A DNA stretch of 53,879 bases from Falsirhodobacter deserti (GTDB lineage: Bacteria > Pseudomonadota > Alphaproteobacteria > Rhodobacterales > Rhodobacteraceae). Location of the stretch: contig NZ_ML137219.1 of the NCBI RefSeq assembly GCF_004015795.1, positions 204,055 through 257,933 on the forward strand. The letters run 5' to 3'. Each line of letters starts with the position of its first letter. The first letter of the stretch is position 1. The position numbers and the translations under genes are program-made. The notes under the pieces are model-generated. The model saw nothing but the letters and a program-made list of their open reading frames with translations, was not told the DNA's origin and searched no databases. Positions 1 through 8,637 of this stretch are shown piece by piece.

Positions 1-116
1 CGATCTCCGGCACCGCCGCTGCTGCGTTCATGGGCAAGAAGGATCTGCAGCCGATCCTTCGCCAGTTGCGCACTTTTGGGCTGGGGCCGTTTGCGGACAA
101 AGCTGAACAGGTTCAT
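1..116 (-). CDS. minE: MinE, cell division topological specificity factor (partial)
   Basis: MinE stimulates MinD ATPase and sweeps MinCD off midcell, which sets the pole-to-pole oscillation. Only the first 38 or so residues are in the window. They start MNLFSFVRKRPQPKSAQLAK and continue with the DRLQILLAHER segment, the contact helix/strand by which MinE binds MinD. The ATG overlaps the minD stop codon in an ATGA arrangement, so translation is probably coupled. The gene is cut by the left window edge, not by a mutation. Order minC-minD-minE matches the usual min operon. Confidence 0.93.
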   Translation of the reverse strand, partial: MNLFSFVRKRPQPKSAQLAKDRLQILLAHERSSGGAGD

Positions 117-961
117 GATGCACGCCCGAACAGCCGCTGGAACAGGCCGGGGCGCGGCTCGCCCACGATGCGCATTTCGACCTGCGTGCCGGTCAGGCGG
201 GACACGGCATCCTCATAGGCCTGGGCGGCGGCGGACGGTCCGTCCAGCACGACGGGCGTGCCCACGTTCGATGCCTTCAGGATCGCCTTGCTTTCCGGGA
301 TGACGCCCAGCAGCGGCACCGCGAGGATTTCCAGCACATCCTCCACCGTCATCATCTCGCCGTTGTCGACGCGTGCCTGGTCATAACGGGTCAGCAGGAC
401 CTGCGCCTTGATCGGTTCGGCACCCTCGGTTTCGGCACGTTTCGTCTGGCTGCTCAGCAGTCCAAGAACGCGGTCGCTGTCGCGCACGGAGGACACTTCG
501 GGATTGGTCACGACCACCGCCTCATCGGCGAAATACATCGCCATCTGGGCACCACGCTCGATCCCGGCCGGGCTGTCGCAGATGATATAGTCGAACTCTG
601 CCTTCAGCTCTTTCAGGATTTCCTCGACGCCCTCTTTTGTCAGGGCATCCTTGTCGCGCGTCTGAGAGGTGGGCAGGATCGACAGCGTGTCCAGCCGCTT
701 GTCCTTGATCAGCGCCTGCTTCAGCTTGGCATCGCCCTGAATGACGTTGATGAAATCGAAAACGACGCGCCGTTCGCAGCCCATGATCATGTCAAGGTTG
801 CGCAGGCCCACGTCGAAGTCGATCACGACCGTCCTGAAGCCCTGCTTGGCCAGACCCGCCGAGATCGCCGCGGAAGAGGTTGTCTTGCCGACGCCCCCCT
901 TCCCCGAAGTGATCACGATGACCCGCCCGAGGGGCGGCTTTTCAGTGGCTTCCGTCGTCAT
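113..961 (-). CDS. minD: MinD, septum-site determining ATPase
   Basis: MinD is a membrane-binding ATPase that recruits MinC and, with MinE, restricts FtsZ assembly to midcell. The 282-residue product has the deviant Walker A motif GKGGVGKTT at residues 20-28 (signature lysine K21). It ends with an amphipathic tail (PGLFQRLFGRAS) that matches the C-terminal membrane-targeting helix of the family. About 13 extra residues precede the first strand compared with the E. coli protein. The start codon overlaps the minC stop (ATGA) and the stop overlaps the minE start, so minCDE form one translationally coupled operon. Confidence 0.97.
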   Translation of the reverse strand: MTTEATEKPPLGRVIVITSGKGGVGKTTSSAAISAGLAKQGFRTVVIDFDVGLRNLDMIMGCERRVVFDFINVIQGDAKLKQALIKDKRLDTLSILPTSQTRDKDALTKEGVEEILKELKAEFDYIICDSPAGIERGAQMAMYFADEAVVVTNPEVSSVRDSDRVLGLLSSQTKRAETEGAEPIKAQVLLTRYDQARVDNGEMMTVEDVLEILAVPLLGVIPESKAILKASNVGTPVVLDGPSAAAQAYEDAVSRLTGTQVEMRIVGEPRPGLFQRLFGRAS

Positions 962-1704
962 GCGATCACCTCCATTCGAAGTTTCTCGTCCTCTAGGTAA
1001 ATATGCGTGCAGCGTTGCCGCGCCGCATCCTCTATCGCCTCATTTGTCTGGTAAAGACCGGCAATGGCAACCAGTTCGGCGTTCAGGCTTTGGCAGAAGA
1101 TATGCGCGCCCTCGTCGCCATGACATCCGGCCATCGCGCGCCCGCGCAGGGTGCCATAGACATGGATGTTTCCTGCCGCGACCAGTTCGGCCCCCGAGGC
1201 GACGGAACCGATCACCGTCAGGTCCCCGTGTTCGGCCACCACCATCTGCCCCGACCGGATGGGAGAGCGGATGACCTTGTTCTTCAGCGGGCGCGGCACC
1301 TCGGCCGTGGGGGCGGCGGGTCCGGGGTCGGCCGGCAGCGGGGCGTCGCGGCCCGCGCTCAGCGTGATCAGGCCCAGTGCCTGCAGATCGGCTGCACCGA
1401 TGCCTGCGGCGTTCTGCACCCCGAAAACCCGCAATTCCCGCTTGCGCAGGCTGTCCACCAGATCGCGGATGCGGCCCGCGTCGCGAAAGCCGCCGGTATT
1501 GGCGAAATCCAGCACGATCGGCGCACCGGAAAAAAATTGTGGCGATCTGCCCAACTGTTCGTCAAGCTGCTCAAAGAAAAGATCGTCCGCACGCTCGGCA
1601 TCGATGCGAAGCGTCAGTGCAGTCAGGAAGCGACCGCGTACCTGAAACGCGGCTACCGTTGCCGGCGCGGGGTCATGCCGGGCCCGGGCGTATCGATCTG
1701 ACAC
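958..1704 (-). CDS. minC: MinC, septum-site determining inhibitor of FtsZ
   Basis: MinC is the FtsZ-polymer inhibitor delivered to the membrane by MinD. The 248-residue product has an N-terminal FtsZ-interacting domain (about residues 15-110), a proline/alanine-rich linker (about 120-140), and a C-terminal right-handed beta-helix domain. That last domain starts near RSPIRSGQ and carries the glycine-spaced turns GDLTVIGSV, GAELVAAGNIHVYGTLRG and EGAHIFCQSL. GTG at 1704 is used as start because no in-frame ATG precedes the conserved region; a good Shine-Dalgarno at ideal spacing is not obvious. It is the first gene of the min operon, so the promoter should lie in 1705-2039. Confidence 0.95.
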   Translation of the reverse strand: MSDRYARARHDPAPATVAAFQVRGRFLTALTLRIDAERADDLFFEQLDEQLGRSPQFFSGAPIVLDFANTGGFRDAGRIRDLVDSLRKRELRVFGVQNAAGIGAADLQALGLITLSAGRDAPLPADPGPAAPTAEVPRPLKNKVIRSPIRSGQMVVAEHGDLTVIGSVASGAELVAAGNIHVYGTLRGRAMAGCHGDEGAHIFCQSLNAELVAIAGLYQTNEAIEDAARQRCTHIYLEDEKLRMEVIA

Positions 1705-2039
1705 GTCGAAACTCTGCTCCTGCGTTGTGGCGGATCCACTCCGCTCTTACTTGATATGCACTCTCACGAAACGGCGGTCGCACAAAAGAAGCCGCTCGCG
1801 TCTTCAGCAGGAACCCGCCAACTTGTAAAGTCCGATGCACCATATCGAAGCCAGAAATTCCGTTCCAGCCATAGTTCGCGGTCCAAGCCGCCGCACACCC
1901 GCGTTGCCGGCAGGAAATCCGGCGAAAGGTTTCTTCTGGGCTGTCGATCAGAACCTATTGTTAACTTTGATTCGGTATGTCTCTTGATGTCGTTTGGAGC
2001 CAAGGGACAACGACTCGACCACTCACGAAGGGGTTTACG
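1705..2039. other. Intergenic region between divergent minC and folE2
   Basis: This 335-base gap separates divergent operons and should hold both promoters. I see no convincing gene, no RNA fold and no clear sigma-70 pair. An AT-richer patch (about 1948-1985) is the likeliest promoter position for folE2. A GAAGGGG purine run lies about 8 bases before the folE2 ATG. No obvious Zur-type palindrome is visible, although folE2 is zinc-regulated in many bacteria. Confidence 0.4.
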
Positions 2040-3107
2040 ATGAACATCCGTGCTGACCTTCCGCCGACGCGGGCCGAGGCGGAGGCCGCGCTTGCGGTTT
2101 TGCGCCACTATACGGCCAACGCGACGGAGGATGACGTTGCCGCGCTGCAGCTTCCCGCGGTTCTTCGCGCTTATCCGGAGCTGAGCCGCGCTTATCCTGC
2201 GGGTTTCACGGCCGATGCGGCCTACCGCGCGACGCTTCCCGATCTGCAGAACGGCCCGTCCAGCCTGATCGTGGGGGCGCAGGCCGTCATCCAGCATGTG
2301 GGCATTTCCAACTTCCGCCTGCCGATCCGGTACCGGCTGAAGGATGGCGGGGATGTGGTTCTGGAAACCTCGGTCACCGGCACCGTCAGCCTTGAGGCGG
2401 AAAAGAAGGGCATCAACATGAGCCGCATCATGCGGTCCTTTTATGCCCATGCCGAGCGTGACTGCTCGCTTGAAGTGATCGAGCACGCGCTGGAGGATTA
2501 CAAGCGCGACCTTGGCAGCTTCGATGCGCGCATCCAGATGCGGTTTTCCTTCCCCGCGCGCGTGCACTCGCTGCGGTCGGGGCTGACGGGGTGGCAGTAT
2601 TACGACATCGCGCTGGAACTGGTGGACGTGGCCGGCCAGCGCAAGAAGATGATGCATCTCGACTATGTTTACTCCTCCACCTGCCCGTGTTCGCTGGAAC
2701 TGTCCGAACATGCCCGCCAAACGCGGGGGCAGCTTGCCACGCCCCATTCGCAGCGGTCCGTCGCGCGCCTGTCGGTGGAAATGACGGGCGACCGGCTGTG
2801 GTTCGAGGATCTGATCGCGCTGGCCCGCACCGCCGTGCCGACCGAAACGCAGGTCATGGTCAAGCGCGAGGATGAACAGGCCTTTGCCGAACTGAACGCC
2901 GCCAACCCGATCTTCGTGGAAGACGCCGCCCGGTCCTTCTGCGCCGTGCTGCAGGCCGATCCGCGCGTACGCGATTTCCGCATCATCGCCAGCCATCAGG
3001 AATCGCTCCACTCCCACGACGCCGTTTCGGTCCTGACCGAGGGGCAGACCTTCGCACAGCAAAGCATCGACCCGAAGATGCTTGCAACGCTGGTCCACAG
3101 TGGCTGA
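2040..3107 (+). CDS. folE2: GTP cyclohydrolase FolE2 (type IB)
   Basis: It converts GTP to 7,8-dihydroneopterin triphosphate, the first step of folate (and queuosine-type deazapurine) synthesis. FolE2 is the isozyme that does not require zinc. The 355-residue protein is collinear with the family: an N-terminal RPTRAEAEAAL-like helix, the VGISNFRLPIRY segment, and the STCPCSLELSEH motif with the conserved active-site cysteine near residue 215. ATG 2040 is preferred over an in-frame upstream start at 1977 because of the purine run just upstream and the usual family N-terminus. It stands alone and is followed by a clear intrinsic terminator. Confidence 0.95.
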   Translation: MNIRADLPPTRAEAEAALAVLRHYTANATEDDVAALQLPAVLRAYPELSRAYPAGFTADAAYRATLPDLQNGPSSLIVGAQAVIQHVGISNFRLPIRYRLKDGGDVVLETSVTGTVSLEAEKKGINMSRIMRSFYAHAERDCSLEVIEHALEDYKRDLGSFDARIQMRFSFPARVHSLRSGLTGWQYYDIALELVDVAGQRKKMMHLDYVYSSTCPCSLELSEHARQTRGQLATPHSQRSVARLSVEMTGDRLWFEDLIALARTAVPTETQVMVKREDEQAFAELNAANPIFVEDAARSFCAVLQADPRVRDFRIIASHQESLHSHDAVSVLTEGQTFAQQSIDPKMLATLVHSG

Positions 3108-3137
3108 ACGGGCGCAAAAACAAACGGGGCTGGTGGG

Positions 3138-3161
3138 AAGACGCGGTAAATCCGCGTTTTT
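3138..3161 (+). terminator. Intrinsic terminator after folE2
   Basis: The inverted repeat ACGCGG (3141-3146) and CCGCGT (3152-3157) forms a hairpin with loop TAAAT. It runs into five T residues (3157-3161), and the stem can extend by A-T/G-U pairs on either side. It lies 30 bases after the folE2 stop. Confidence 0.85.
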
Positions 3162-3216
3162 CCTGACGGGGTCAGATGGCGTTCACCACTCGGAAACGGA
3201 TCAGTGAATAGGATTG

Positions 3217-3245
3217 TCGAAACACATTTCGAACAGGAACGTTCC
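3217..3245. promoter_or_regulatory. Two adjacent palindromes upstream of the interrupted periplasmic gene
   Basis: TCGAAA-CACA-TTTCGA (3217-3232) is a perfect inverted repeat. It is followed four bases later by the perfect 10-base palindrome GGAACGTTCC (3236-3245). They sit about 80-110 bases before the chosen start at 3325, where an operator would be expected. The binding protein is unknown. Confidence 0.35.
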
Positions 3246-3688
3246 AAAGGTGCCAGACAAGCCGAAGGAAGAACCATCCACGCCGTTCTTATTGCGGCCC
3301 TTGAAGGAAAGTGACGCAAGCCAGATGCCAGCCCTCAACGTTCTGCGCCTGATCAGTATCCTTTTCTGCCTTACGGCATTCGGCGCCGTGGCCAATGCCG
3401 ATGATCTTTCCGTGCCGCATGGCCGGGTGATATTGACCGTGTCCGGTAACATTGCGAAAACCAATGTCGGCAATACCGCTCAGTTCGACCGGAAAATGCT
3501 TGAGGATTTGGGCATGGTCGATGTCACCACCGCAACGCCCTGGCATAGCGGCAGGAACACCTTTTCCGGTGTGCCGGTTGCAAAACTTCTTCAGCATGTG
3601 CAAGCGCAGGGTGAAACGATCAAGGCGGTTGCGCTGAACGATTATGAGGTGGACATCCCACTTTCGGACGCATGGAAGACGGGCGTCA

Positions 3689-3696
3689 TCCTCGCG
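3689..3696. repeat. IS256 target-site duplication, left copy
   Basis: TCCTCGCG directly abuts the left inverted repeat and recurs at 5030-5037. Eight base pairs is the usual duplication length for IS256-family elements. Confidence 0.92.
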
Positions 3697-3720
3697 GGGA
3701 GTGTCTGAAACTCTGTGTAT
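3697..3720. repeat. IS256 element terminal inverted repeat (transposase 3' end)
   Basis: It begins GGGAGTGTCTGA and ends TCTGTGTAT. It pairs with the repeat at 5006-5029, with five mismatches in 24. Confidence 0.88.
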
Positions 3721-3751
3721 CTGACGGGGCGCATACGGTTTTCAGATACAG

Positions 3752-4966
3752 TCAGGCGTCGAAGCGCCCGGCGAACATTATGGCCAGCGGATTGCGGGCC
3801 GCAACCCATTCACGAACCGCCCGACCGCCCTTCTCGAAGTTGCGGATGGCCAGGTAGATCAGCTTGGTCGCGGCCTCCTCGGTGGGGAATGAGCCCTTGG
3901 TCTTCAGCGTCTTCCGCAGCACCCGGTTCAGCGACTCCACGGCGTTGGTGGTGTAGATGATCTTCCGGATCGCTGCGCTGAAGGCAAAGAACGGGATCAC
4001 CTCGGCCCAGGCCCGGCGCCAGGCCGGGGCAATGGAGGGGTATTTCCCGGCCCATTTCTCCTCGAACCCGTCCAACTGTCGGGCGGCCTCCTCCGCCGTC
4101 GGGGCCTGGTAGATCGGGCGCAGATCGGCGGCCACGGCCTTGCGGTCCTTCCAGCTGCAGAAGTTCATCGAATGCCGGATCAGGTGAACGATGCAGGTCT
4201 GAACTGTGGTATCCGGGAAGGCCGCTGTGATGGCTTGCGGGAAGCCCTTCAGGCCGTCCACGACCGCGATCAGGATGTCCTGAACCCCCCGGTTGCGCAG
4301 TTCGTTCATCACCGACAGCCAGAACTTGGCGCCCTCGTTGTCGGCGATCCAGAGTCCGAGGACCTCGCGCTCCCCATCCCTGGTGACACCCAGGGCGATG
4401 TAGACCGCCTTGTTCTTGACCATCCGACTGTCGGCATCGCGGATCTTGACCCTGAGCGCGTCGAAAATGACGATCGGATACATCCGGTCCAGCGCCCGGT
4501 GCTGCCACTCGCGCACCTCGTCCAGAACTGCATCGGTCACGCGGCTGATCAGGTCGGGCGAGACCCGCAGGCCATACAGATCCTCAAGATGGGACTGGAT
4601 GTCGCGCACCGACAAACCGGCGGCATAGAGCCCGATGATCTTGTCATCCACCCCGTCGATCCGGGTCTGACCCTTCTTCACCAGCTCAGGCTCAAAGCTG
4701 CCATCCCGGTCGCGCGGAACCGACAGCGGCACCTCGCCATCCGAACCCTTGACCCGCTTGGTTGAAATCCCGTTGCGGCGGTTGGATTGTTCCGGCGGGG
4801 CCTCGGCACCGGCCTCATAGCCCAGATGCGCGGTCAGTTCGGCCCCGAGCATCCGTTCCATCAGACGGATCGTCAGCTCCTTCATCAGCCCGGCCTCGCC
4901 AAGCAGATCGTCAGGCCGCTTGCAGCCCTTCAGCAGCTCGTCCAGCAATTCGTTCGAAATCGTCAT
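3752..4966 (-). CDS. IS256-family transposase (DDE)
   Basis: This 404-residue mutator-type transposase catalyses copy-out-paste-in movement of the surrounding element. The likely DDE triad is visible: D169 in VIFDALRVKI, D237 in VVDGLKGF and E344 in YTTNAVESLNR. The family hallmark block ARNPLAIMF lies near the C-terminus. The ATG at 4966 has an AGAGGAG ribosome-binding site 8 bases upstream. No frameshift or stop is present, so the enzyme should be functional. Confidence 0.97.
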   Translation of the reverse strand: MTISNELLDELLKGCKRPDDLLGEAGLMKELTIRLMERMLGAELTAHLGYEAGAEAPPEQSNRRNGISTKRVKGSDGEVPLSVPRDRDGSFEPELVKKGQTRIDGVDDKIIGLYAAGLSVRDIQSHLEDLYGLRVSPDLISRVTDAVLDEVREWQHRALDRMYPIVIFDALRVKIRDADSRMVKNKAVYIALGVTRDGEREVLGLWIADNEGAKFWLSVMNELRNRGVQDILIAVVDGLKGFPQAITAAFPDTTVQTCIVHLIRHSMNFCSWKDRKAVAADLRPIYQAPTAEEAARQLDGFEEKWAGKYPSIAPAWRRAWAEVIPFFAFSAAIRKIIYTTNAVESLNRVLRKTLKTKGSFPTEEAATKLIYLAIRNFEKGGRAVREWVAARNPLAIMFAGRFDA

Positions 4967-5005
4967 CAGCCGTGCTCCTCTCAGGAAGCATGGACCACAT
5001 CACGA

Positions 5006-5029
5006 ATACACAGAAGCTCGGACACTCTC
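5006..5029. repeat. IS256 element terminal inverted repeat (transposase 5' end)
   Basis: Read on the minus strand it begins GAGAGTGTCCGA and ends TCTGTGTAT. It matches the left repeat at 19 of 24 positions. Confidence 0.88.
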
Positions 5030-5037
5030 TCCTCGCG
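5030..5037. repeat. IS256 target-site duplication, right copy
   Basis: TCCTCGCG is identical to 3689-3696. The reading frame of the disrupted gene resumes at the ACA codon at 5038. Confidence 0.92.
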
Positions 5038-5186
5038 ACAAGGCTGAACGGGAACGAGATGACCGTTCGTGAAAAAGGCCCTGTCTTCGTCATTTATCCC
5101 TATGACAGCGCCGCAGCTATGGATACGCAAACCTACTATTCGCGATCTGCGTGGCAGGTCTCGCGTCTTATCATCAGGTAGCATCA

Positions 5187-7163
5187 TTGAGGCGTGCCCT
5201 TTACACCCTGATCGCATTGTTTATCGCAGCGACGATCTACCTGTTGAACACCGTCGGCGAACGCCAGGCGGTGCTGCGGCACGTTGCCCATCACAATGAT
5301 GCATGGGCCGTCAGTCAAACCGTGCAGGAACTGTTGCGCCTTGAAAGCGCGATGTCGCATTACCTGCTTGCCGATGCGCCGAAATCGCGCGCCAACATCC
5401 GCCTGCGCCTCGACATCGTGCTGAGCCGCCTGATCTCGTTGCAGGAAGGATCGTTGAAGGCGTTCCTGAACGAAATCCCCACGCGCCAGCAAACGCTTGC
5501 AAGCCTGACAGAAGCCGCGACCGACCTAGACGCAACACTTGAAACGATGGCCGATCAGCAGCTGCTTGCGGAAATCGAGCGTTTAAGCATGCTTGTCGGC
5601 CCGCTGACGAACCTGTCCTCGCAATCGGTGCAACACAGCTGGGCCGTGGCCGAAGAGAGTCTTGAAAGCCTTGAACGGCTTCACAAGATCTTCGGCGTCG
5701 TTGTCGCCTTCCTGATCTTGTGCTGGTGCGGGCTTCTGTTGCTTCTGCTGCGCCACAACCGCCTGCTCAACATCGCGCAAGAGCAGGGTAAAATCCTCAA
5801 TGACAGCCTGAATGCCGCCGGGAACGAGTTGCGCGACAAGAACCGCAGCCTTGAATATGCGGCGCATCACGACTCGCTGACGGCATTGCCGAACCGCACC
5901 CTTTTCTGGAACGAACTGGAAATGGCCCTCAGCGCACCGCTTGCCGGCGACACAACGGTCAGCCTGCTGCTTCTTGACCTTGATGAATTCAAGACCATCA
6001 ACGACACGATGGGCCACGATTTCGGCGACATGCTGCTGCATCAGGTCAGCGAGCGGATGCGCCGGTTCAGCGTGAAGCCGCACATGTTCTGCCGCCTTGG
6101 CGGGGACGAATTCGCCTGCCTTCTGCTTGGCAAAACGGGCGAGGAAAGCGCGGCTTATGCGCGCGATCTGGCGGTGGATATCGCTGCCCCCTACCAGCTG
6201 TCCGATCGCCGCGCCCAGATCGGATGCTCCATCGGCATCGCGACCACGGAAGCACCGCATGAAACCACGGCCCAGATGCTTTTCAAGCGGGCCGATATTG
6301 CGCTTTACCGGGCAAAGGCCGCCGATCAGGATCGCGTCTGCCTGTTCGAATGCTTCATGCAAAGAGAATACGATGACCGCAAGGTGCTGGAGGACGACCT
6401 TCGCACCGCCCTTGCACAGCAGTCGATCCAAGTCGAATACCAGATCCAGGTGGATGTTCAGTCCCGCGAACTTCGCGGGCTGGAGGCACTTGCGCGCTGG
6501 AACCACCCGACGCGCGGCCAAATTCCCCCTGCCGTTTTCATTCCCCTTGCCGAAGAAATCGGACTGATCCGGGATCTTGGACAGCTGATCCTGCTGGAGG
6601 CGTGCACCGAAGCGGCCAAGTGGCACCAGCCATTGAAGATCGCGGTCAACCTTTCGTCGATGCAGTTGCAGTCACCTGCCTTTCTGGGCGTCGTTCAGGA
6701 CGTTCTGCGCGCAACGGGGCTGGACCCCAAACGGCTTGAGCTGGAGATCACGGAATCCGTTCTGCTGGACAACCGTGAGGACGTTTTCCAGGCGCTTACC
6801 GATCTGAGGCTTCTGGGCGTCACGATCGCCATGGATGATTTCGGAACCGGCTATTCCTCGCTGGCGGTCCTGCGGGATATTCCCTTCGATACGATCAAGC
6901 TCGACAAGACCTTCGTTCGCGACATTGCCTGGGATCACGAAGCGCAGGCACTGGTGAAACTTGTCACCGATCTGGCTGGCCTTCTCCGCAAGGAAGTGAT
7001 CCTTGAGGGGATCGAGACAGAAGACCAGCACGACATCATCCGGCACCTTCGCTGCGATGTCGCGCAGGGCTTCCTTTTTGGCCGCCCCACGACCGCAGCC
7101 CAGCTTGACCACCTGCGGCGGAGCCGCGAACCAGAACCGGCAACCAACCATTGTGGAGCATGA
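5187..7163 (+). CDS. Membrane-anchored GGDEF-EAL protein (c-di-GMP synthase/phosphodiesterase)
   Basis: The protein is 658 residues from a TTG start at 5187. A first transmembrane helix sits at about residues 5-22, a periplasmic helical sensor region at about 23-165, and a second helix at about 168-188. The GGDEF domain follows (intact RLGGDEF), then an EAL domain with LEALARW, NLSSMQL, ELEITES, MDDFGTGYSS and LEGIET. All catalytic motifs of both activities are therefore present. TTG 5187 puts the first helix right after the start and has an AGG six to eight bases upstream; GTG 5151 is the alternative and would overlap the previous gene. It directly follows the IS-disrupted periplasmic gene (stop 5181), its probable former partner. 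Confidence 0.9.
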   Translation: MRRALYTLIALFIAATIYLLNTVGERQAVLRHVAHHNDAWAVSQTVQELLRLESAMSHYLLADAPKSRANIRLRLDIVLSRLISLQEGSLKAFLNEIPTRQQTLASLTEAATDLDATLETMADQQLLAEIERLSMLVGPLTNLSSQSVQHSWAVAEESLESLERLHKIFGVVVAFLILCWCGLLLLLLRHNRLLNIAQEQGKILNDSLNAAGNELRDKNRSLEYAAHHDSLTALPNRTLFWNELEMALSAPLAGDTTVSLLLLDLDEFKTINDTMGHDFGDMLLHQVSERMRRFSVKPHMFCRLGGDEFACLLLGKTGEESAAYARDLAVDIAAPYQLSDRRAQIGCSIGIATTEAPHETTAQMLFKRADIALYRAKAADQDRVCLFECFMQREYDDRKVLEDDLRTALAQQSIQVEYQIQVDVQSRELRGLEALARWNHPTRGQIPPAVFIPLAEEIGLIRDLGQLILLEACTEAAKWHQPLKIAVNLSSMQLQSPAFLGVVQDVLRATGLDPKRLELEITESVLLDNREDVFQALTDLRLLGVTIAMDDFGTGYSSLAVLRDIPFDTIKLDKTFVRDIAWDHEAQALVKLVTDLAGLLRKEVILEGIETEDQHDIIRHLRCDVAQGFLFGRPTTAAQLDHLRRSREPEPATNHCGA

Positions 7164-7164
7164 C

Positions 7165-7863
7165 ATGACAACAGACACCCCCCTGATGCTTCACGGCCTT
7201 CGCGTTCCGATCACGGAAGCCGACGTGTCGCCCATCATCTGGCGCGCGATGCAAAGCGGGGAGTATGAGGCGAAGGAAGCGCGAAGCGTGCGCAGCCTTC
7301 TGCATGCGGGCGACCGGGTTCTGGAACTCGGCTCCGGGCTCGGGATCATCACGTCGATCATGGCGCAAACGCCGGGTGTGCGGATCTGGTCGTTCGATGC
7401 GAACCCGCACCTGATCGCCCTGTCCCGCCGGATCGCCGAGGCGAACGGCATCGAGAATGCGACATTCGAACACGGCCTTCTGTCGGCGGGGGCGCCGGAA
7501 AACCATGTCTTCTACATCCGCCGCGACTTCTGGATGTCGTCGATGCTGGAAATGCAGGGCCCCTATGAAACGACGATTTCCGTGCAATCCTCCAACCTCG
7601 ATGATTTCATCGAGGCGCAGTCGGTCAACGTCCTCGTGATGGATATCGAGGGGGCCGAGCGGGATCTTCTTTCGGCGGCGCGCCTTGATGGGGTGGACTG
7701 CGTTTTCCTTGAACTGCACGATCATCTTTACGGATTGGCCGGCGTGCGGTCCATCTTCGCGTCGATGGACCGGCTGGGCTTTTCCTATGATCCGCGCGGA
7801 TCTTCCGGCCCCTGCGTCCTGTTCCGGCGCGATGACGGGCAGATCCGCCCGTACGAAGGGTAG
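7165..7863 (+). CDS. FkbM-family SAM-dependent methyltransferase
   Basis: This is a 232-residue putative methyltransferase. The SAM-binding glycine motif VLELGSGLG lies at residues 52-60, an acidic strand end (FDANPHL) follows, and the FkbM-type VLVMDIEGAE motif is near residue 155. The ATG at 7165 has GGAG six bases upstream. It starts one base after the stop of the c-di-GMP gene, so the two are almost certainly cotranscribed. The substrate is unknown; family members often O-methylate glycans or lipids, so a cell-surface target would fit a c-di-GMP-linked operon, but that is inference. Confidence 0.85.
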   Translation: MTTDTPLMLHGLRVPITEADVSPIIWRAMQSGEYEAKEARSVRSLLHAGDRVLELGSGLGIITSIMAQTPGVRIWSFDANPHLIALSRRIAEANGIENATFEHGLLSAGAPENHVFYIRRDFWMSSMLEMQGPYETTISVQSSNLDDFIEAQSVNVLVMDIEGAERDLLSAARLDGVDCVFLELHDHLYGLAGVRSIFASMDRLGFSYDPRGSSGPCVLFRRDDGQIRPYEG

Positions 7864-7869
7864 GCCCGC

Positions 7870-8637
7870 TTATTCCACGCCCACCACATCCGGCGTTTCC
7901 CAAGCCAGGTGCTGGCCCCCGTCCGGGCAGATAAGCTGCCCGGTCACCGCCCGCGCCCCCAGCAGGTAATCAAGGGCGGCGGCGATATCCTCGGGGCCCG
8001 CGCCGCGGCCCAGCACGGTGGCGGCGCGCTGACGGCGGAAGTCCTCCTCGGACTGCCGCGCCCCGGCCAGCGTCGGCCCGGGACCAATGGCGTTCACGCG
8101 AACATGCGGCGCCAGCGCCTGCGCGGCCGTCCGCGTCAGCGTCCACAAAGCGGCCTTGGCCAGCGTATAGGTCATGAATTGCGGGGTCAGCTTGTGCACC
8201 CGCTGGTCGATCATGTTCACCACCAGCCCCTGCGCCAACGGCTCCCCATCGCTTGCAGCCTTGGGAACCTGCGCGGCAAACCCCTGGATCAGCACGAACG
8301 GCGCGCGCAGGTTGGAGCCGATATGCCGGTCCCAGCTGCGGCGCGTTGCGGTTTCAAGGCTGTCCTCCTCAAAGATGGAGGCGTTGTTGACAAGCACCGT
8401 CAGCGGCCCCACCGCCCCGACCGCCCGGCCGATCAGGCCCTGCGTTGCGTCTTCGTCCAGAAGGTCGGCCTGAATGGCCTCGGCCTGGCGGCCCATTGCG
8501 CGGATTTCGGCAACCGTTTCAAAAGCCGCGTCCCGCGATCCCGAATAATGCACCGCGACATCGTAACCACGCCGGGCAAGATGCAGGGCCATCGCCCGAC
8601 CGATCCTTCGGCCTGCGCCGGTGACTAGTGCTGCCAT
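7870..8637 (-). CDS. Pteridine reductase-type SDR (PTR1/FolM-like)
   Basis: This 255-residue short-chain dehydrogenase has the NADPH motif TGAGRRIG (residues 6-13). The arginine pair is typical of NADPH-preferring pteridine reductases. The catalytic serine of ordinary SDRs is replaced by aspartate (D144 in NMIDQ), followed by Y157 and K161. This D-13-Y-4-K spacing is that of PTR1, where Asp, Tyr and Lys are catalytic. It may therefore reduce dihydrobiopterin, dihydromonapterin or dihydrofolate. ATG 8637 is chosen over an upstream extension because the Rossmann fold begins immediately. It is convergent with the methyltransferase gene, six bases apart. Confidence 0.82.
   Translation of the reverse strand: MAALVTGAGRRIGRAMALHLARRGYDVAVHYSGSRDAAFETVAEIRAMGRQAEAIQADLLDEDATQGLIGRAVGAVGPLTVLVNNASIFEEDSLETATRRSWDRHIGSNLRAPFVLIQGFAAQVPKAASDGEPLAQGLVVNMIDQRVHKLTPQFMTYTLAKAALWTLTRTAAQALAPHVRVNAIGPGPTLAGARQSEEDFRRQRAATVLGRGAGPEDIAAALDYLLGARAVTGQLICPDGGQHLAWETPDVVGVE

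Follow-up and report, generated by a model that had tools for sequence, protein, structure and literature searches.

An IS256-family element splits a putative pruR gene upstream of dcpA in Falsirhodobacter deserti

The window analysed here is a stretch of 53,879 nucleotides from Falsirhodobacter deserti, corresponding to positions 204055-257933 of one contig (NZ_ML137219.1, contig C2 in our numbering) of a 2.98-Mb genome assembled into 7 contigs (GCF_004015795.1). It contains an IS256-family insertion sequence located within a gene that directly precedes the gene of a GGDEF-EAL protein, i.e. a predicted enzyme of cyclic di-GMP (c-di-GMP) turnover. Sequence comparisons identify the split gene as pruR, predicted to code for the periplasmic pterin-binding regulator of DcpA, and the locus as a putative PruR-DcpA pterin signalling cassette of the composition folE2 - pruR - dcpA - fkbM - pruA (Table 1). 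We consider it probable, at roughly 0.78, that the pruR of this cassette was recently destroyed by the element and that the regulatory bias of DcpA has been lost, unless a second PruR (PruR2) encoded elsewhere in the genome replaces the missing one.

The interrupted gene and the element

When the element and one copy of the flanking repeat are removed, the flanks join to a single frame of 171 codons (3325-5181), just as an earlier note on this DNA had stated; the signal peptide named there corresponds to a hydrophobic N-terminus that was judged by eye. The note had also defined the element to the base by an 8-bp duplication and 24-bp inverted repeats. Its boundaries and the duplication TCCTCGCG hold, TCCTCGCG being the sole exact repeat at the element borders (script; lengths of 4-12 bp, offsets of -3 to +3); the terminal inverted repeats are present at both ends, but they are imperfect and agree at 19 of 24 positions. 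The family transposase, the terminal inverted repeats and a target duplication of 8-9 bp place the element in the IS256 family, whose members have Mutator-type transposases, and in its 404-aa transposase, imperfect terminal repeats, duplication length and multicopy occurrence it shows nothing unusual.

In its present form pruR is split after codon 124, and the frame stops three codons inside the element, giving a product of 127 amino acids, 124 of them native. The 47 lost residues include the pterin-site Trp163, which the currently encoded protein no longer contains, and therefore this copy of pruR should be dead.

The 5' piece alone matches PDB entry 7kos, entitled 'Pterin Binding Protein' (phmmer, Table 1), which is the PruR of Agrobacterium tumefaciens (PMC13259868), and an intact homologue from another genome of the genus (G006) matches 7kos with an E-value of 1.1e-52 and 7rkb with one of 2.9e-47. 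According to a review of the field, PruR proteins comprise ~170 amino acids and carry secretion signals; Trp takes the place of the molybdenum-ligating Cys, the pterin site mostly has a Tyr, and pruR sits immediately upstream of dcpA (PMC13259868). The rejoined gene agrees with this in its 171 codons, in Tyr107 and Trp163 and in its relation to the solved PruR structures, and the Tyr and Trp columns are retained in all 45 aligned PruR rows, the rejoined window row included. Ten cassettes were compared, i.e. the window, two further Falsirhodobacter genomes (G002, G006) and seven genomes of the Paracoccus group, and in 9/9 of the others an intact pruR lies directly before the GGDEF-EAL gene. We regard the 3325-5181 frame as a genuine gene because its 5' piece matches 7kos and because intact homologues hold this position throughout the nine. 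The proposal of the note that the split gene specifies a periplasmic partner of the GGDEF-EAL protein is thereby upheld, the partners being a PruR-DcpA pair by sequence. Neither of the two findings that the note had named as speaking against it, i.e. sister genomes with the same split gene and no empty-site version, or a lack of homologues in front of GGDEF-EAL genes, was made: two genus mates carry an intact pruR, and homologues do occupy this position.

The molybdopterin-binding fold suggested in the note stands as far as the fold family is concerned, a molybdopterin/sulfite-oxidase type being supported; the ligand has to be refined, since PruR is described as binding small pterins and as likely unable to hold the molybdenum cofactor (PMC13259868). 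A subunit of a molybdenum enzyme was rejected as an identity: the Oxidored_molyb match of the 5' piece stays below the Pfam cut-off (weak evidence, coming from a piece), and the PruR structures match far better.

Apart from the insertion, pruR appears undamaged. In a leave-one-out test with 41 PruR rows (L113-L116 dropped from the 45) the rejoined window PruR deviates at 0 of the 38 positions at which 90% or more of the other rows agree; the nine cassette PruRs deviate at 0-4 such positions and the mean of all rows is 1.6. At a threshold of 80% the window deviates at 1/50 positions and the cassettes at 1-6 of 50-51. Thus, judging from the near-invariant positions, the window pruR would have been fully constrained until it was cut, and the insertion looks recent, in keeping with the note, insofar as the rest of the gene is free of decay. 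As a side aspect, the guanine plus cytosine content is 0.55 for the rejoined pruR and 0.595 for dcpA, with 0.644 for the window; these low values and the patchy distribution of the cassette in the genus would fit a horizontal arrival.

Table 1. Features of the locus (positions in the window)
Feature	Position	Strand	Basis or remark
folE2, GTP cyclohydrolase FolE2 (first step of pterin synthesis)	2040..3107	+	NCBIfam NF010200, E 1.3e-85, over cut-off
pruR 5' part (putative), codons 1-124, signal region (by eye) and Tyr107	3325..3696	+	phmmer against 7kos, E 5.6e-28
Target-site duplication, left copy	3689..3696	+	8-bp direct repeat TCCTCGCG
IS256-family insertion sequence	3697..5029	-	1,333 bp; boundaries and family transposase match
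Left terminal inverted repeat	3697..3720	.	19/24 positions match the right one
IS256-family transposase, 404 aa	3752..4966	-	Pfam PF00872, E 2.8e-124; NCBIfam NF033543, E 1.8e-123
Outward open frame from ATG inside the right end of the element	4990..5181	+	in frame with the pruR 3' part, shares the pruR stop
Right terminal inverted repeat	5006..5029	.	imperfect partner of the left one
Target-site duplication, right copy	5030..5037	+	8-bp direct repeat TCCTCGCG
pruR 3' part (putative), codons 125-171, carries Trp163	5038..5181	+	rejoined frame
dcpA (predicted), GGDEF-EAL, N-terminal periplasmic domain between two hydrophobic stretches (by eye)	5187..7163	+	Pfam GGDEF, E 1.1e-39; EAL, E 1e-65
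FkbM-family methyltransferase, conserved third cassette gene	7165..7863	+	NCBIfam TIGR01444, E 7.5e-13, over cut-off; adjacency
pruA-type pteridine reductase (short-chain dehydrogenase/reductase; predicted), TGX3RXG and YX3K	7870..8637	-	NCBIfam NF006597, E 8.1e-112; PDB 5tgd 'FolM', E 2.1e-64, best match

The element is one of several in this genome, which holds 13 PF00872 matches; two of these are the halves of a single site. Among eight other near-full copies that were compared five are identical, and the others are off by 1, 6 and 27 nt. Exact 8-bp duplications are found at three of the eight (script) and 9-bp duplications at two (read from printed flanks), one copy has a duplication matching at 7/8 positions, and two copies stand as a pair. 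On contig C1 two copies in the same orientation have a common 9-bp repeat at their outer ends, resembling a composite transposon. The closest plasmid-borne copies are Paracoccus elements with 87-89% DNA identity.

The dcpA cassette and its methyltransferase

The product of the gene directly downstream of pruR has WX7E in its N-terminal periplasmic stretch as well as GGDEF, EAL and DDFGTG, i.e. the catalytic motifs are intact, as the note had read them. The gene shows no decay and is classed as encoding a DcpA-type protein, with cyclase and phosphodiesterase activities predicted from the motifs. It starts with TTG, 5 nt beyond the pruR stop, and a TTG or GTG start 3-9 nt past the pruR stop recurs in 13/13 cassettes read (14 were tried, G365 being unmatched by the pattern; ambiguous starts were picked by eye, following the protein alignment). 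The tight spacing and the weak starts suggest that pruR and dcpA are translationally coupled. A classification of the G002 dcpA as pseudogene was dropped: one TAG was listed, yet an open frame of 641 aa was found.

The order pruR, dcpA, fkbM on one strand is kept in all ten cassettes. Within the fetched stretches pruA and folE2 each accompany the pair in 7/10 (the folE2 of G006 was counted from a gene end only, at the contig edge), with order and strand varying. The putative pruA product of the window has both TGX3RXG and YX3K in its translation and is thus of PruA type, its substrate being predicted only. At thresholds of E <= 1e-100 for dcpA and E <= 0.001 for pruR, three of seven genus genomes contain dcpA, and the same three contain pruR. 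In the Paracoccus group (125 genomes) a close FkbM orthologue, defined by E <= 1e-45, occurs in seven genomes with 61-73% identity and not in 118, and the same seven carry the DcpA periplasmic domain with 49-54% identity. Four more genomes of this group have weak periplasmic matches (25-32% identity) with an adjacent pruR match and no FkbM at the threshold, in one of them with the DcpA-like domain turning up in one search only. PruR systems without FkbM are therefore common. Directly before the window lies a 10-N join, and the preceding contig end repeats window positions 4-2314 exactly (2,311 bases), which is probably an unmerged assembly overlap.

The link between methyltransferase and PruR extends to plasmids. 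A tblastn search with the FkbM protein yielded 22 plasmid records at E <= 1e-30, and of the corresponding loci 16 were examined. In 13/16 fkbM clusters with pruR or a pruR-like gene. Seven of the 16 show pruR-dcpA-fkbM, one of these, from Paracoccus liaowanqingii, being the same sequence as cassette G365. In six others (L123, L124, L127, L128, L133, L134), located on plasmids of Mesorhizobium, Chelativorans and Aquibium with VirB-type or repABC genes nearby in 5/6, a response regulator gene is followed by fkbM, a small pruR-like gene and a sensor histidine kinase gene. The six pruR-like proteins match PruR only weakly (24-29% identity; E 3e-9 to 6e-5, small database), and the two of them that were tried in Pfam hit Oxidored_molyb below the cut-off; all six have a Trp within an RNSIWV stretch and, by motif, a Phe at the position of the PruR Tyr. 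Two Shinella plasmid loci (36-41% identity) have neither pruR nor the pruR-like arrangement. Three plasmid loci are broken, which could reflect other natural breaks or sequencing errors. L137, a record of Pseudochrobactrum algeriensis and one of the seven, has a split pruR and a whole dcpA, whereas two other records of this species match in one piece. The other two are Phyllobacterium records: L135, also one of the seven, has both fkbM and the dcpA start region split in two, and L138 has a bipartite fkbM beside dcpA pieces, with pruR not detected.

A tblastn search with a PruR returned 116 plasmid records, at most 22 of which can overlap the FkbM records, and therefore only a subset of PruR systems includes FkbM. 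Across a sample of 337 genomes of the class the window's own FkbM is the only one at E <= 1e-40, and among 295 genomes of the family the FkbM matches listed outside this genome are at most 43% identical. None of 29 such loci has a pruR match within 1.5 kb on each side; therefore, the link to PruR appears to be limited to close FkbM orthologues.

As this methyltransferase is so closely tied to PruR-type receptors, it is a candidate pterin methyltransferase. In A. tumefaciens a pterin proposed to be 2'-O-methylmonapterin has been reported, which is missing without pruA, and the field's review leaves unclear which pterin PruR binds in vivo (PMC13259868). The word methyltransferase does not occur in the main text of this review, and it was the only source with 'methylmonapterin' in the literature collection searched; there, no paper combined FkbM, pterin and methyltransferase, and a search for monapterin with methyltransferase gave no relevant title beyond the review among the matches listed. 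This leads to the METHYLTRANSFERASE idea, which we put forward tentatively and as rather less than likely: the FkbM enzyme would be a pterin methyltransferase that produces the PruR ligand in this branch of the system, e.g. an O-methylated tetrahydromonapterin resembling the 2'-O-methylmonapterin of Agrobacterium, and would have been recruited again to the operons with PruR-like protein and kinase on Mesorhizobium-type plasmids, whereas the window strain would still make the signal with its receptor cut and DcpA left to the orphan PruR. Against such a role stand the generic fold and the possibility of other substrates (sugar, protein). The AlphaFold model of the protein (mean predicted local distance difference test score 83.7) gave generic S-adenosylmethionine methyltransferase matches in a fold comparison, and a guess at the substrate from this comparison was dropped as the matches were of this kind only.

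An orphan second pruR

A full-length second gene, pruR2, is located on the largest contig (C1:2084138-2084653, minus strand; L049:10138-10653). Its product is 65% identical to the rejoined window PruR and keeps the Tyr and the Trp, and a signal and a ribosome site are present by eye. The neighbouring genes code for a protein with a LuxR-type domain and for a hydrolase with serine beta-lactamase fold (PF00144). Directly behind the pruR2 stop lies a remnant of a dcpA start, which agrees with the dcpA start of G006 at 32/48 nt and with that of the window at 30/48 nt (0/5,000 codon shuffles as good in either case) and with those of G002 and G324 at 27/48 nt each (1 and 2 of 5,000 shuffles as good); past this remnant the similarity to dcpA stops. 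pruR2 thus seems to be what remains of a second pair whose dcpA was lost. No DcpA-type periplasmic domain other than that of the window DcpA was found genome-wide with the G006 domain as query (matches to E 10), and no other partner of pruR2 emerged from this search. Judging from these comparisons the two loci would show reciprocal loss: one retains dcpA but no working pruR, and the other has kept pruR but not dcpA. As the search turned up a single DcpA-type periplasmic domain, PruR2 may act on the window DcpA in trans.

G006 likewise has an orphan pruR (L093:1492-2010) in addition to its intact pair, followed by the gene of an EamA-family transporter. How pterins cross the membrane is unknown according to the review (PMC13259868), and this transporter is possibly of interest for that reason. 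A PruR tree was set aside as a means of dating pruR2, as it cannot tell duplication from transfer: the window PruR falls together with the nine cassette PruRs and the two orphans in one weakly supported group (88/81), within which no inner order is resolved except for four Paracoccus rows.

Consequences of the insertion

Agrobacterium mutants deleted for pruR, pruA or dcpA make more adhesive polysaccharide and more biofilm, and their DcpA counterpart in the wild type works mainly as a c-di-GMP phosphodiesterase in a PruA-dependent manner (PMC13259868). The window resembles this system in its two-gene operon with pruR first, a PruR of ~170 amino acids with Tyr and Trp, a WX7E periplasmic domain, GGDEF, EAL and a PruA-type pteridine reductase (PMC13259868); it differs in that pruR is interrupted, an FkbM-family methyltransferase gene follows dcpA and an orphan second pruR exists, and in the presence of folE2 and pruA near most pairs compared here. 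PruR-DTB systems (PMC13259868) also pair a PruR-type protein with a membrane sensor, there a sensor kinase, whereas the partner in the window is a GGDEF-EAL enzyme, and the FkbM-linked kinase operons on plasmids hold only weakly PruR-like proteins.

In the normal system, known from Agrobacterium, PruA makes a reduced pterin that is bound by periplasmic PruR, and pterin-loaded PruR docks on the periplasmic domain of DcpA, biasing the enzyme towards c-di-GMP breakdown. A PruR reduced to 124 native residues, without the pterin-site Trp, should be unable to exert this bias. Without a replacement, the breakdown bias of DcpA would be lost and c-di-GMP and attachment would rise, a direction of effect that we infer by analogy across genera. 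Translation of dcpA would probably be lowered too, given its weak start codon just past the pruR stop, and this would push c-di-GMP and attachment the same way. PruR2, finally, is a possible replacement acting on the window DcpA, and thus the note's suggestion that the c-di-GMP enzyme has been disconnected from its periplasmic input holds for the cut in the local PruR and is unsettled as to the disconnection itself.

Some observations weigh against a recent destruction of pruR with a corresponding loss of DcpA control. The pruR frame no longer reaches its own stop, yet the frame starting from the ATG at 4990 does, and coupling may survive through it if the region is transcribed. The copy inserted in pruR differs from the five identical copies at 5 of 1,333 nt, 4 of these differences being private, and therefore it would not derive from the newest burst of the element. 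At the 90% threshold pruR2 deviates at 3/38 near-invariant positions and the G006 orphan at 5/39, more than most cassette PruRs; the orphans may be under relaxed constraint or have altered specificity, and these deviations speak mildly against an unchanged role. The contrast fades at the 80% threshold, with 5/50 and 6/51. A sigma-70-type scan of 3108-5300 found 0 promoters and 0 terminators, with 0.5 and 1.7 expected from shuffles, and is weak for this group; a promoter or terminator within the element was dropped as a candidate after this empty scan, a weak test.

It is conceivable, although below even odds, that the insertion is nearly silent as PruR2 replaces the lost PruR in trans and two damaged pairs make up one working system. 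The pruR2 frame is intact and keeps Tyr and Trp, with a signal and a ribosome site by eye; nothing of its own dcpA survives past the first codons, and the window dcpA encodes the only DcpA-type periplasmic domain found. Moreover, the ratio of nonsynonymous to synonymous differences per site (pN/pS) of pruR2 against 11 other PruRs is 0.35-0.49, and 0.35-0.48 was obtained when the cassette PruR of G006 was compared with nine rows from cassettes or the window (ratios by hand; with synonymous sites near saturation, pS 0.53-0.90, they are coarse only). However, PruR2 is only 65% identical to the protein it would replace and has three near-invariant residues changed, and the orphan of G006 exists beside an intact pair, so that orphans need not be replacements. 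Rather unlikely, in our view, is a polar insertion that silences dcpA too and switches off both halves of the pathway at the locus: the spacing between pruR and dcpA is tight with non-ATG starts in all 13 cassettes read, and the element lies antisense and terminates the pruR frame, but the outward open frame reaches the pruR stop, the dcpA frame is intact and the weak scan revealed no terminator-like site in the region.

We are equally doubtful about neutral decay, in which an expansion of IS256-family elements in this strain knocks out a dispensable accessory cassette. An expansion is suggested by the 13 PF00872 matches noted above in a 3-Mb genome, and dispensability by the four of seven genus genomes without dcpA and pruR at the thresholds used, by the 118/125 Paracoccus-group genomes lacking both the close FkbM orthologue and the DcpA domain at 49-54% identity, and by the broken cassette versions on plasmids; yet dcpA, fkbM, pruA and folE2 retain open frames, family matches and, where read, their motifs. 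Very unlikely is a reversible switch in which the element exits precisely and pruR becomes whole again, a mechanism that has been put forward for IS256 in staphylococcal ica genes (PMC4322838). The perfect 8-bp duplication and the full-length transposase would permit it, but the same source reports IS256 within ica in 0/120 clinical isolates and doubts natural switching (PMC4322838). The ica insertions are alike in that an IS256-type element inactivates a biofilm-related gene; there matrix synthesis is turned off (PMC4322838), whereas here a regulator is lost and attachment should rise. An assembly or culture artefact, finally, is highly improbable: a 10-N join and an unmerged 2.3-kb repeat do lie nearby, the join 3.7 kb upstream of the element, but the four private differences and the perfect target duplication argue that the inserted copy is not a collapsed repeat.

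The reading of a PruR-DcpA cassette with a recently destroyed pruR thus describes an insertion of a common kind that has hit an interesting site, where the sensor of a known, young pathway is broken and a spare sensor is kept. What is added to the earlier note is the identification of PruR, the putative reciprocal loss and the conserved methyltransferase, whose link to PruR would provide a concrete enzyme for the open question of which pterin PruR binds in living cells. As a natural pruR knock-out with dcpA in place and a possible replacement, the strain would make it possible to test cleanly whether a PruR and a DcpA of different pairs can work together.

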